Translations under genes and position numbers: made by a program
Notes under the pieces: model-generated
The model's input: only the letters and a program-made list of their open reading frames with translations
Told to the model about the DNA's origin: nothing
Database searches by the model: none
Shown: one piece after another, positions 1,942 to 8,139 of the stretch
How positions within the stretch are numbered: the first letter of the stretch is position 1
Layout of the letters: each line of letters starts with the position of its first letter
Origin: Verrucomicrobiota bacterium
GTDB lineage: Bacteria; Verrucomicrobiota; Verrucomicrobiia; Limisphaerales; AV2
Assembly: GCA_003218935.1 (NCBI GenBank)
Contig: QHPA01000019.1
Coordinates: forward strand, 1-13,830
DNA: 13,830 nt
Direction: 5' to 3'

Positions 1942-3951
1942 ATGGCTGAGCCGAAAGAAACTCCCTTGATGGAAAAAATCGTGTCGCTGTGCAAACGACG
2001 CGGTTTCATTTTCCAATCGTCGGAAATTTACGGAGGCATCAACGGGTTCTGGGATTACGGCCCGCTTGGCGCGGAACTGAAGCGCAACGTGAAAGAACTT
2101 TGGTGGCGCAGCATGACGCAACAGCGCGAAGACGTGGTCGGCCTCGAAGCCTCCATCGTCATGCACCCGAAAATCTGGGAGGCCAGCGGCCACACCAGCA
2201 CCTTCAGCGATCCGATGGTGGATTGCCTCGGTTGCAGGAAACGATTTCGAGCGGACCAAATCGAGGCACGGAGCGGGACTGCGTATTCTTACGTCGGAGC
2301 GTTTGATGAAAAGCTGTGGAGCCAGGCAGCCATTGCTGGAATAACCGGCGGGACGGAGCCTTCGGCAGATTTTCTTTCACAACTGACCGACGACGTAACG
2401 AGACACAACTTTGCAAAACAACTTCTGTCTTCGTCGGAGCCGGAAATCCGCGCGATTGGAAAGGACCTGGAACAGCAGACGATCAGCAAGTATCAATGCG
2501 ACATCCCGTTTGCAGTTCTGCTCCCCTCAGGAAAAGCGGCCGATAGCGCGCGAAAAATCGCAAAACAGTATTATCGACAGCGCAGCGTCGCGAACCCCGT
2601 GCCGCGTGACGAGCGTTCCGAGGAAGTAAAAAACAGCACGCACTACTGCAACGAATGCGGCAGCCTTCTGACACCACCCAAGCAGTTCAATCTGATGTTC
2701 AAGACCTACGTCGGTCCGGTGGAGGATCCCGAGAGCGTCGCTTATCTCCGCCCGGAAACCGCGCAGGCCATCTTCGCCCAGTTCAAAACGGTCCTCGAAG
2801 TTTCGCGGCAGAAGATTCCTTTCGGCATCGCGCAGATCGGCAAAGCATTTCGCAACGAAATCAACCCGCGCAACTTCACCTTCCGCTCCCGCGAGTTCGA
2901 ACAGATGGAACTGGAGTTCTTCATCCGCCCGGATGAGGTCGTCGAGACGATCTGCGGGAAAGTGGCGAACGCGGCGGATATTTGGAAAGAAAACATCGAA
3001 CCTCGAACATCGAACGCCGAACATCCAACCTCTGGCTCTCAACCTTCAACTCTCAACCCTCAACCACAGCCCGACTGGGGCTGGGAAGCGTGGCACAAAT
3101 ACTGGATCGAGCAACGCATCCGTTGGTATGAGAGCATCGGCCTGCCGCGCGCTTCACTGGAGGAATACTGGCAGAAGAAGGACGAACTCGCCCACTACGC
3201 CAGGGCCACGGTCGATATTCTCTACAAGTTTCCTTTCGGCACGCAGGAACTCGAAGGCATCGCCGCGCGCGGCGATTTCGACCTTTCGCAACACCAACGT
3301 TTTTCCGGCAAGCCAATGGGCGTGTTCGACGACGAGTTGAAGGCGGCCTGGGCGAGGCTCGAGGAAGCGAAAACGAAGGAGCTTGGGCAGCGCTACCACG
3401 ATGCGCGACTGAAATATCTCGCGCAGATGGGCGTCGCCGCCGAGGAATCCTCGAAACAGGCGCGCGAAGACGCCGACTGCCTCGCCCGGGGCAACTATAT
3501 TCCGCACGTGATTGAACCGAGCGCCGGGGTGGACCGTCTCATCCTCGCTTTGATCTGCCACGCTTACTGCGAAGACCAGGCGCCCGACGAAAAGGGCCAT
3601 CCGGAAACGCGTGTCGTGATGCGGTTCCATCCGCGCATTGCGCCAATCAAGGTTGCCGTGTTCCCGTTGCTCAAGAACAAACCCGACCTCGTGAACAAGG
3701 CAAAAGAAGTGCGCGACCTTCTGCGTCCGCACCTGACGGTTTTCTATGACGAGGCTGGCGCGCTTGGCCGCCGCTATCGCCGTCAGGACGAGGCCGGCAC
3801 ACCGTTCGGCCTCACGATTGATTTCGAGACGCTCGGCGAGAAAGGGCCGGAACTGAAAGACACCGTGACCTTGCGCGACCGCGACTCGATGAAGCAGGAG
3901 CGAGTGAAGATCGGCGACCTCGTTCCATTATTGCTGGAAAAGGTCCGGTGA
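1942..3951 (+). CDS. glyS: Glycyl-tRNA synthetase (single-chain, class IIa) with insertions
   Basis: The protein charges tRNA-Gly with glycine in the cytoplasm. The N-terminus (KRRGFIFQSSEIYGGINGFW) is typical of the alpha2-type enzyme. Motif 2 is FRNEINPRNFTFRSREFEQ from residue 303, motif 3 is EPSAGVDRLILAL from residue 525, and a C-terminal anticodon-binding domain (HPRIAPIKVAVFPLL) ends the protein. It has 669 residues; common bacterial forms have about 450-550. The excess includes about 130 residues between the zinc pairs C95/C98 and C236/C239. A smaller insert at about residues 352-377 is encoded by a 7-nt repeat tract. The DNA of the first insert (about 2260-2640) is visibly less GC-rich than the flanks. 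The start at 1942 lacks a clear Shine-Dalgarno; ATG 1969 (MEKIVSL) is an alternative. All catalytic motifs are present, so the enzyme is probably functional. Confidence 0.96.
   Translation: MAEPKETPLMEKIVSLCKRRGFIFQSSEIYGGINGFWDYGPLGAELKRNVKELWWRSMTQQREDVVGLEASIVMHPKIWEASGHTSTFSDPMVDCLGCRKRFRADQIEARSGTAYSYVGAFDEKLWSQAAIAGITGGTEPSADFLSQLTDDVTRHNFAKQLLSSSEPEIRAIGKDLEQQTISKYQCDIPFAVLLPSGKAADSARKIAKQYYRQRSVANPVPRDERSEEVKNSTHYCNECGSLLTPPKQFNLMFKTYVGPVEDPESVAYLRPETAQAIFAQFKTVLEVSRQKIPFGIAQIGKAFRNEINPRNFTFRSREFEQMELEFFIRPDEVVETICGKVANAADIWKENIEPRTSNAEHPTSGSQPSTLNPQPQPDWGWEAWHKYWIEQRIRWYESIGLPRASLEEYWQKKDELAHYARATVDILYKFPFGTQELEGIAARGDFDLSQHQRFSGKPMGVFDDELKAAWARLEEAKTKELGQRYHDARLKYLAQMGVAAEESSKQAREDADCLARGNYIPHVIEPSAGVDRLILALICHAYCEDQAPDEKGHPETRVVMRFHPRIAPIKVAVFPLLKNKPDLVNKAKEVRDLLRPHLTVFYDEAGALGRRYRRQDEAGTPFGLTIDFETLGEKGPELKDTVTLRDRDSMKQERVKIGDLVPLLLEKVR
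2992..3068 (+). repeat. 7-nt tandem repeat tract inside glyS
   Basis: Eleven consecutive 7-nt units can be drawn across this stretch. Ten begin with AAC, for example AACATCG, AACCTCG and AACGCCG; the later units are AACCTTC, AACTCTC and AACCCTC. It adds about 25 residues (PRTSNAEHPT, then SQPSTLNPQ) just before the conserved DWGWEAWHKYW of the synthetase. The reading frame is kept. Units of the same family occur reversed in larC (7702-7736) and upstream of pckG. Confidence 0.85.
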
Positions 3952-5613: not shown

Positions 5614-6375
5614 GTGACCGCGAAGGAAGCTATCGACTTGTTGGAAACATTTCGCGCCGGGAAGGTCAGCCGCGAGAAAGTGTTGCGCGCTTTTCAGACC
5701 GCGCCGCTGGTTGACCTCGGCTTCGCCCGGGTGGACACCCACCGCGCGCTGCGAAAGGGTTTCCCGGAGGTTGTCTTTGGCGCGGGCAAAACACCGCTCC
5801 AGGTCGTCCAGATCGCCGCGAAAATTTTTGAGCGCGAACAGCGCATCCTGGTCACTCGCATCAATGGCGAACATGCGCGTGCGCTGCGCCGGAGGTTCAA
5901 AAGCGCAGTTCATCACCAGGCGTCGCGTTGCGTGACGATTGAAAAGTCGCCTTTGCCCAGGCGGCCTGGCACCATCGCCGTTCTGTGCGCTGGCACCAGC
6001 GATTTGCCGGTGGCCGAGGAAGCCGCGGTGACGGCGGACATCATGGGCAACCGTGTCGAGCGGATTTACGATGTCGGCGTGGCGGGGCTGCACCGGCTGC
6101 TGAGCCGGCTGGAATTGATCCAAAGCGCGAACGTCCTCGTCGTGGTCGCGGGTATGGAAGGAGCGCTGCCGAGCGTGGTCGCCGGATTGGTTTCCAAACC
6201 GGTCATCGCCGTGCCGACCAGCGTCGGCTACGGCGCGAGCTTCGGCGGACTTGCGGCGCTGCTTGGCATGTTGAACAGTTGCGGCAGCGGCGTGACCGTG
6301 GTGAATATTGACAACGGCTTCGGCGCGGGCTACGCCGCCAGCCAGATTAACGCTCTGTCTAGCGGCGGTCTGTGA
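5614..6375 (+). CDS. larB: Pyridinium-3,5-biscarboxylic acid mononucleotide synthase LarB
   Basis: LarB carboxylates and hydrolyses nicotinic acid adenine dinucleotide. This is the first step of nickel-pincer nucleotide cofactor synthesis for LarA-type racemases. The 253 residues match the family's usual length. Recognisable blocks are GFARVDTHRALRKGFPEVVF (36-55), GKTP, CAGTSDLPVAEEAAVTA (125-141), RIYDVGVAGLHRLL, AGMEGALPSVVAGLVSKPVI and PTSVGYGASFGG. The last block, NSCGSGVTVVNIDNGFGAG, contains C223, which corresponds to the substrate-binding cysteine known in Lactiplantibacillus LarB. The start is GTG 5614: the same frame contains the DUF2127 stop 36 nt upstream and no other start codon. 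The final residues (SSGGL) and the stop come from a REP-like hairpin at 6360-6382. The gene looks intact. Confidence 0.94.
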   Translation: MTAKEAIDLLETFRAGKVSREKVLRAFQTAPLVDLGFARVDTHRALRKGFPEVVFGAGKTPLQVVQIAAKIFEREQRILVTRINGEHARALRRRFKSAVHHQASRCVTIEKSPLPRRPGTIAVLCAGTSDLPVAEEAAVTADIMGNRVERIYDVGVAGLHRLLSRLELIQSANVLVVVAGMEGALPSVVAGLVSKPVIAVPTSVGYGASFGGLAALLGMLNSCGSGVTVVNIDNGFGAGYAASQINALSSGGL

Positions 6376-6599
6376 CCGCCGCAAACTCGTATGGAACGGC
6401 TGCGTCGCCTGGAGCAAGTTCATGTCGCAAACCCAATCTACTTCGTTACCTGTCGCACGGAGGCGCGAAGGGCATTTCTCGCGCGCCCGCAAGTCCATGC
6501 CGCCTTCGTTCAGTTTTGCCAGGAGGCTGCGAGACGAAACATTTTCGTCGGACGCTACATTCTGATGCCTGACCATGCTCGCCTGTTAGACCGCCGCTA
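6360..6599 (+). mobile_element. RAYT-derived element bounded by inverted REP-like ends
   Basis: The left end, TAGCGGCGGTCT (6360-6371), is the exact inverse of AGACCGCCGCTA (6588-6599). The left end continues into a hairpin, GCGGCGGTC-TGT-GACCGCCGC (6362-6382). The right end, read on the minus strand, begins GTAG followed by the stem, like the tetranucleotide foot of REP elements bound by RAYT enzymes. Between the ends lies the start of a RAYT gene. The element separates larB from larC and abuts both. No target-site duplication was seen. Confidence 0.65.
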
Positions 6600-6606
6600 C
6601 AAATGA
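6391..6606 (+). pseudogene. Truncated REP-associated tyrosine transposase (Y1_Tnp)
   Basis: The 71 residues begin MERLRRLEQVHVANPIYFVT. They contain the N-terminal RAYT/TnpA_REP pattern: PIYFVTCRTEARRAFLARP, then VGRYILMPDHA. The family's HUH metal site normally reads MPDHxH. Here the frame breaks at MPDHAR, so the second histidine and all downstream sequence, including the catalytic tyrosine, are missing. It is therefore a dead remnant of perhaps 40 percent of the gene. Its stop overlaps the larC ATG (ATGA), probably by chance, because the break falls at the REP-like right end. Confidence 0.75.
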
Positions 6607-8139
6607 AAACGCTTTACCTCGATATCTTCAGCGGCATCAGCGGGGACATGTTCATCGGCGCGATGATTGACCTCGGCGTCGATGCGCGGGCAATCGAACA
6701 CCAACTCGAAAAACTCAAGCTCGACGGCGGGCGCATCCACGTCGCCCGTGGACAAAAGGCGAATATCGCTGGGGTGAAATTTGACGTGCAGCTCGCGCAC
6801 GCCCACGAACACACTCACGCCAACGGCACCAGGCACGCGCATCCGCATTCGCACACAGCCGGTCGCGACCAGGGTCCGCGCGGTCCGCATGGGGGTCCGC
6901 TGGTCAAAACGTCGTTCGGCAACGTGGAACTCAGCGTGTTCGAGACCAATGTGCCGCCGCGCTTCCGGCTCTACTTTTTCGATTCAACCGGCAAACCGCT
7001 CGCGCCGGTCGCTGCCAGGAGCGTCGGCCTCGAAACGGTTCGCCCAGGCAGGAGACGCCAGCTCTTCCAGTTCAAGCGGCAGGGCGATTACCTCGAAGCG
7101 ACCGAAGAACTGCCTGAACCGCACGAGTTCGCAGCCGTGTTGAGGCTGAAACTTGGAAGCCGGATCGAAAAGCGCGAGACGCAGTTCGTCGAGCACCATC
7201 AGCACCTCGAACACGGACAAACCCACGACCGCGGCGACGCACGCGAGCATGAGCACGAGCAAGTCCATCGCGGTCTTCCACCGCATCGCAGTGGCCGAAG
7301 GAAAAATTCACGGCCTTCCGCCGGAGCAAGTCCACTTTCACGAGGTCGGTGCGGTGGATTCCATCATGGACATCGTGGGCGCATGCGTTGCGCTCGAACT
7401 GCTCGGCAAGCCGCGCGTGCTCGCGGCGCCGGTCGTCGAGGGCGCGGGTTTCATCGATTGCGCGCATGGCCGCTTTCCACTGCCCGCTCCGGCCACGCTC
7501 GCCATTCTCGGCGCGCGCGGCGTCGGCATCACGCAATGCGACGAGCCGCACGAACTCGTCACGCCCACCGGCGCGGCCTTGCTGGCCGAGTTCGTCGAGA
7601 GCTTCGGGCCGATGCAGGGTCTGGTCGCCGCAAAAATCGGTTATGGGCTCGGCACGCGCGACAATCAGACGCGGCCAAACGTGCTCCGCGCCGTTCTGGG
7701 AGAAATTCCGGGTTCCGCGCTCCGAGTTCAGCGTTCGGCGGGCGCGAACGATTGGGAAACAGACACCGTCGCCGTCGAAGGCGCGCTCGATGTGTTCCAC
7801 ACGCCGATTCAGATGAAGAAGAACCGGCCGGGCGTGTTGCTCACGGTGCTTTGCGCCGCCGCGGATGCCGACAGGTTTTCCGAACTCATCCTGCACGAAA
7901 CGAGCGCGTTCGGCGTGCGGCGTTACTCGACCGAGCGGCGCAAGCTGAAACGCGAACTGGTGAAGGTGAAAACGCAATTCGGCGAGGTCACCGTAAAAGT
8001 CGGCAAGTTGAATGGCAAAGTGGTGCAGGTCGCGCCGGAGTTTGAGTCGTGCAAGAAGCTGGCAGAGCAAACCGGCGTGGCGTTGAGGAAGGTTTACGAA
8101 GCGGCGATCAAAGCTGCGAACATCGAATGCTCCAAATGA
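6603..8139 (+). pseudogene. larC: LarC nickel-insertion protein with inserted domain, frameshifted
   Basis: LarC inserts nickel into the pincer nucleotide in a CTP-dependent reaction. The first frame (from ATG 6603) begins MKTLYLDIFSGISGDMFIGA, the family's signature. A histidine-rich stretch follows at residues 66-84, then a foreign domain at about 92-197, then a second histidine-rich stretch at 198-222. Near 7258 the homology moves to another frame: SIAVFHRIAVAEGKIHGLPP, HFHEVGAVDS, LVTPTGAALLAEF and TPIQMKKNRPGVLLTVLC, ending at 8139. About 20-25 conserved residues between the histidine-rich loop and AVFHRIA are missing. A second in-frame gap at about 7774-7780 removes the family's ETN-DD region (VAV joined to GALDVF). 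The Lactiplantibacillus larC uses programmed frameshifting, but at a different place. Probably inactive, unless the window has assembly errors. Confidence 0.85.
7702..7736 (-). repeat. 7-nt repeat tract inside larC
   Basis: Five 7-nt units can be drawn. On the minus strand they read GAACGCT, GAACTCG, GAGCGCG, GAACCCG and GAATTTC. It encodes a variable loop (IPGSALRVQRSA) between the conserved RPNVLRAVLGE and DWETDTV of LarC. Same family as the glyS tract, in opposite orientation. Confidence 0.65.

Follow-up and report, generated by a model that had tools for sequence, protein, structure and literature searches.

Organization of the larC locus

The stretch of DNA analysed here, 13,830 nucleotides (nt) of contig QHPA01000019.1 from a Verrucomicrobiota bacterium, is referred to at its whole length as the window. 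Judged by sequence, its central gene is LarC, the cytidine triphosphate (CTP)-dependent nickel insertase of nickel-pincer nucleotide (NPN) synthesis, with an extra domain in a histidine-rich (His-rich) loop. The following features were assigned.

5614..6375, + strand: larB, NPN cofactor synthesis, upstream of larC (NCBIfam NF033503, E = 3.7e-92)
6603..6791, + strand: LarC N-terminal core, residues 1-63 (PF01969 residues 4-74, E = 1.4e-17; boundary from comparison with relatives)
6792..6875, + strand: first His-rich linker, residues 64-91 (read from the sequence)
6876..7196, + strand: inserted domain, residues 92-198 (domain profile match 6879-7196, E = 1.7e-53)
7197..7260, + strand: in-frame portion of the second His-rich linker, ending at about residue 219 (DNA alignments with loci L005 and L006)
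7261..8139, + strand: rest of LarC (C-terminal part of LarC1 plus LarC2) in another frame (PF01969 profile 83-375, E = 7.4e-95; TIGR00299, NF052512)

Here and below, handles beginning with L, P and G denote the loci, proteins and genomes of the scans, and G000 is the window's own genome. The larC frame starts at 6603 and reads from the LarC N-terminus into the insert without a shift. Against PF01969 (Ni_insertion; cut-off 22.1 bits), the two LarC pieces of the window scored 64.3 and 318.7 bits and four intact homologues scored 457-473 bits. PF01969 was the sole Pfam match over the cut-off in the window pieces and in the four intact fusions scanned, and the Pfam scan of these sequences did not find the transmembrane part of cation diffusion facilitator (CDF) or NicO transporters (PF01545 or PF03824). 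A single continuous LarC frame is absent from the window, where it breaks after 7260, and present in L005-L012.

An earlier note on this DNA had stated that residues 92-197 of the larC frame have no counterpart in ordinary LarC and are bracketed by His-rich stretches at 66-84 and 198-222. The first statement was borne out, since 63 insert-free LarC proteins of the same order and the solved LarC 12bi show a loop only. Both His-rich stretches are real as well, but the second continues in frame only to about residue 219. From there on, residues 220-222 included, that frame no longer encodes LarC, since the window is short of 62-68 nt found in relatives at this point.

Identity and hosts of the inserted domain

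The insert is homologous to a domain of RcnA/NicO nickel exporters, CDF transporters and CzcB-type adaptors, and the kinship with CDF and other metal proteins stated in the earlier note was thereby confirmed. In profile-profile comparisons, the LarC insert matched the NicO copies with an E value of 3.7e-48 and the CzcB N-terminal copies with a probability of 99.2 and an E value of 3.5e-19 (hhalign). Database matches of the insert bear the precomputed label PF25971, presumably the CzcB N-terminal domain; no PF25971 match was returned by the hmmscan Pfam scans. The insert alone matched 0 families in Pfam and NCBIfam, and PDB searches by sequence, whether the query was the insert or a profile, gave either no match or matches with E values of 0.45 and worse.

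A protein region search with the insert gave 383 matches, and of the best 120, 113 combined PF01969 with PF25971 and 7 were CDF transporters. The best 120 of 484 matches in a NicO-based region search comprised NicO/RcnA and CDF proteins, a group of about 345-361 residues with PF25971 only, and 2 LarC proteins. Proteins of about 350 residues (P0225, P0252 and about 20 similar ones) have hydrophobic segments, no Pfam match and the domain in a His-rich central loop; they are possibly a further metal transporter family. In the CDF transporter P0027, two tandem copies of the domain were seen by eye in residues 1-240, before the transmembrane part. In the window's own genome, the domain also occurs in the central loop of a nickel exporter of the NicO type (G000:C480:16348-16677; L002, L026). 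The exporter gene adjoins a gene for a resistance-nodulation-division (RND) pump (PF00873) and a small helix-turn-helix (HTH) protein, which gave a LysR-type HTH match below the cut-off and looks ModE-like by eye.

Recurrence of the fusion

The recurrence of the fusion was assessed at three levels. In a species scan with one genome per species, 16 loci encoded a relative of the insert. Half of them, all from Verrucomicrobia (L005-L012), have an open LarC of 546-598 residues with the insert at the same position; seven of the other eight were classed as NicO (L013-L019), and in the last, a CzcB-type adaptor (L020), the domain lies near the N-terminus. Within the order of the window's genome, LarC was found in 266 of 320 genomes and the domain in 40. 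The domain lies within the LarC frame in 12 of the 266 LarC-bearing genomes (G000-G004, G037, G038, G061, G062, G063, G102 and G103), and larC is open throughout in 11 of these, G000 being the broken window copy. Six family codes occur among the fusion genomes, and all 12 genomes listed with those codes have the fusion. The order yielded 47 domain places, 15 of them unclassed (open frames of 371-608 amino acids); L043 was classed to no host. A second copy of the domain was matched in 3 of the 12 fusion genomes, which are incomplete.

At the level of the phylum, the domain was present in 11 of 387 sampled genomes and within a LarC frame in G000 only; the places outside LarC were classed as NicO or CzcB, with L127 unclassed. 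On these counts, the insert was rejected as an ordinary part of LarC in the phylum. Out-of-frame junk was ruled out too: the insert is in frame, has homologues and is constrained. Intact LarC proteins with the same insert, which the earlier note had named as support for its claim, occur in other genomes of the order and among the protein database matches. The fusion was not found described in the literature searched, which covers only part of publications. It is already recorded in databases, as proteins named LarC with the PF25971 label, yet apparently undescribed.

The genomic setting of the fusion agrees with an NPN pathway. larB lies upstream of larC on the same strand in 8 of 8 related loci, at distances of 18 to 1753 nt. 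Among the fusion genomes, the LarA family was matched in 11 of 12 and LarE above the cut-off in 11 of 12; in the window's genome the E values were 1.6e-62 for the LarA family and 1.6e-91, over the cut-off, for LarE.

The broken window copy of larC

Compared with L006, which is 95-96% identical to the window over the longest upstream stretches, the window larC lacks 62 nt after 7260 (68 nt compared with L005); a further 66 nt of the relatives' sequence are absent, in frame, after 7775. Two further stretches of L006 are absent from the window: 115 nt after 4140, on the upstream side of a truncated AI-2E transporter frame, and, in frame, 78 nt after 10150 in the phosphoenolpyruvate carboxykinase (PEPCK) gene. 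In agreement with this, the AI-2E frame begins at position 116 of its Pfam profile, and the PEPCK_N match stops at 190 of 218. The clean gaps in these two other genes suggest an assembly fault behind the larC break. The likeliest explanation of all four gaps (62-115 nt) is a fault of this kind in the 546-contig genome, and the real larC of the organism is probably intact.

Alternatively, the break could be biological, with larC being either a pseudogene or two frames joined by a programmed frameshift, as larC1 and larC2 are in Lactobacillus. Two separate frames do cover LarC in the window, and none of the 12 fusion genomes, the window's included, gave a match to a further LarC. Two other loci of the window's genome show no clear loss and so lend less support to an assembly fault: near larE, about 79 nt are absent compared with G001 but not with G004, and near larA a gap of about 255 nt could be compared with G001 only. 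On the other hand, the close relatives L005 and L006 are open throughout larC and 62-68 nt longer at the break, and the losses from the AI-2E region and the PEPCK gene affect the same window. Relatives have comparable gaps of their own (about 117 nt absent from L005 compared with L006 in the AI-2E region, and 52-57 nt from L007 in the PEPCK gene); these fit assembly faults, but could be real. A biological break is thus considered improbable, and a programmed frameshift in the window larC is unlikely.

Some further observations were made in the window. Between larB and larC, positions 6391-6606 gave a match to a transposase of the REP-associated tyrosine type that remained below the cut-off (26.7 bits, cut-off 80). 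The interval between the two genes (6376-6602 in the window) is taken up in L005 and L006 by about 100 nt that include short repeats. The class II tRNA synthetase frame at 1942-3951, glycyl by eye, contains a repeat-like peptide stretch at about 2980-3070, part of which is extra compared with L007.

Loop position and constraint

From the order, 74 LarC proteins were extracted, of which 63 were insert-free; these were mostly the best-scoring matches and not a random draw. They have a loop at the insert site, which is usually His-rich, and in the solved LarC 12bi (414 residues) about 10 residues occupy this site by sequence. The domain therefore most likely entered an existing variable loop. Histidines were counted in the 30-residue flanks of all copies with at least 25 residues on either side. 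At least four histidines in each flank were found in 111 of 114 LarC copies, in 19 of 21 proteins of the ~350-residue group and in 12 of 65 NicO copies; more than 80 residues away from the domain, the histidine share in the same proteins was 2.9%. In all 31 classed CDF proteins, the domain begins no further than about 15% into the chain.

In nine pairs, the ratio of nonsynonymous to synonymous substitutions (dN/dS) ranged from 0.07 to 0.20 in the domain and from 0.065 to 0.18 in the C-terminal core; these values are rough because synonymous sites were saturated in several pairs. Invariant residues are present in the domain across 44 proteins. By these sequence comparisons, the domain is constrained about like the LarC core. 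Domain and core distances in 44 proteins were correlated (Mantel r 0.61), with 0 of 999 permutations as high.

These data bear on the idea that the insert is a passenger, a piece of an exporter loop that landed in the larC loop through easily recombining His-rich coding repeats and is tolerated as a surface linker. The insertion does lie inside the His-rich loop in all 11 intact fusion genomes read, and the solved LarC has just a short turn at this site. Moreover, in several genomes of the order (G081, G132, G243, G258 and G304) LarC lies in two pieces on separate contigs, divided at or close to the His-rich loop, as if repetitive DNA breaks assemblies, and the loop DNA thus appears to be repeat-like. 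A useless passenger should decay, however, so the low dN/dS values, the invariant residues and the consistent presence of the fusion in all genomes listed with the six family codes speak against this idea, which we regard as very improbable.

History of the domain

A domain tree was built from 106 columns and 96 of 232 hits; duplicates were removed, as were two thirds of the LarC P rows and all pieces below 85 residues. A starred branch (99/98) sets off 45 LarC copies together with four unclassed rows, three of which are short or partial proteins and one a very long branch. The LarC side stands apart from the NicO, CDF and CzcB copies, and CzcB forms a distant branch. The LarC tree comprised 73 of the 74 rows (L069 was left out), with loop and insert excluded. 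Its 11 insert-bearing rows require 5 label changes, at least 2 of them forced by starred branches. Yet a single clade of the insert-bearing rows was not rejected in the approximately unbiased (AU) test (p = 0.105), and the bootstrap was not settled. The trees would fit a single capture out of a transporter lineage that was then passed on, with losses or transfers; several separate captures are possible.

Predicted structure and proposed function

By prediction, the insert folds separately as an immunoglobulin (Ig)-like beta-sandwich, and the His-rich linkers on both sides are disordered. In the model of the intact homologue L010, the insert likewise remains a separate domain, as the earlier note had proposed to check, and the linker corresponding to the first one (residues 67-101) has a predicted local distance difference test (pLDDT) score below 50. 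By VIA-align, the copper/silver-binding proteins CrdA and FetP rank first for the insert model, at 8-15% identity. Foldseek searches with the insert model returned nothing significant, the likeness to CrdA and FetP included.

According to PMC11796402, the insertion of nickel into the pincer nucleotide by LarC depends on CTP. The His-rich loop of RcnA is predicted to be cytoplasmic and is discussed as a possible nickel chelator in PMC11247825. The insert of LarC may serve in nickel collecting or sensing, as the earlier note suggested, and we propose that it is a captured metal-export domain acting as a tethered nickel-handling module, a reading for which we see an even balance. A beta-sandwich domain of about 105 residues from metal-export machinery would have been captured into the His-rich loop of LarC. 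Acting jointly, the domain and the two linkers would bind or retain nickel and hand it to the insertase core, and the tethered module could raise the local nickel concentration or help to select nickel where it is scarce or competed for by exporters. Tentatively, this proposal can be extended to a LarC with its own metallochaperone, an extension that is conceivable but doubtful. The exporters' nickel-recognition module would then have been acquired, the domain and its two His-rich arms would take nickel from a pool drained by the exporter and pass it to the pincer nucleotide, and exporter and insertase would read nickel via a shared module.

The main rival is a docking or sensing module, which would dock LarC onto another protein (LarB, LarE, LarA, a further LarC subunit or an exporter) or alter its activity while the linkers alone bind metal. 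Ig-like beta-sandwiches are often binding modules, and the non-significant Foldseek neighbours of the insert are largely of this type. Conservation across hosts mainly concerns hydrophobic residues, Pro, Gly, Arg and Glu. Conserved Glu and His residues occupy positions 18, 23, 74, 81, 83 and 84 of the insert model. The domain consists of merely 5% His and 0.3% Cys and thus offers few possible soft-metal ligands, which also weighs directly against nickel handling by the domain. The hosts with a Pfam identity, however, are metal transporters, RND adaptors and LarC, and metal handling fits this set better than general docking. In addition, a second domain copy was matched in few of the fusion genomes, so the domain need not pair with another one of its kind. 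We consider docking or sensing rather unlikely.

To our knowledge, the route by which nickel reaches LarC is not established. The natural fusion of a metal-transporter domain with the insertase makes nickel delivery to LarC directly testable. PMC11796402 describes a four-gene lar system in E. coli, which would allow the module to be isolated, deleted or transplanted into a different LarC. The fusion also offers a clue to what a widespread domain, for which the searches returned no description, may do, as it provides a soluble enzyme host among transporters.

Comparison with known systems

The window gene was compared with the LarC family (PF01969; TIGR00299 for LarC1 and NF052512 for LarC2; the solved 12bi and the LarC2 structure 6bwo). 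Like other members, it matches the family profile in its core, before as well as after the insert, larB lies upstream, and the LarA and LarE families are present in the genome. Unlike the ordinary LarC proteins of the order and 12bi, which are without the domain, it has about 105 extra residues as a separate domain in the His-rich loop. RcnA/NicO nickel-cobalt exporters (L014, P0144 and the exporter at G000:C480) share the domain in a central loop, but they are membrane exporters, and both flanks are His-rich in only the minority of copies counted above. CDF transporters (P0025-P0030, P0033 and others) contain the same domain as the LarC insert, but near the N-terminus and not within a core. 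The CzcB-type RND adaptors (L020 and others) have a homologous N-terminal domain; in contrast to LarC, they are export adaptors, and their copy lies on the distant branch of the domain tree. CrdA (9ll4), FetP (3nrq, 5i0x) and FtrA (8vv6) are at 8-15% identity, with no significant match to the insert in sequence or Foldseek searches.
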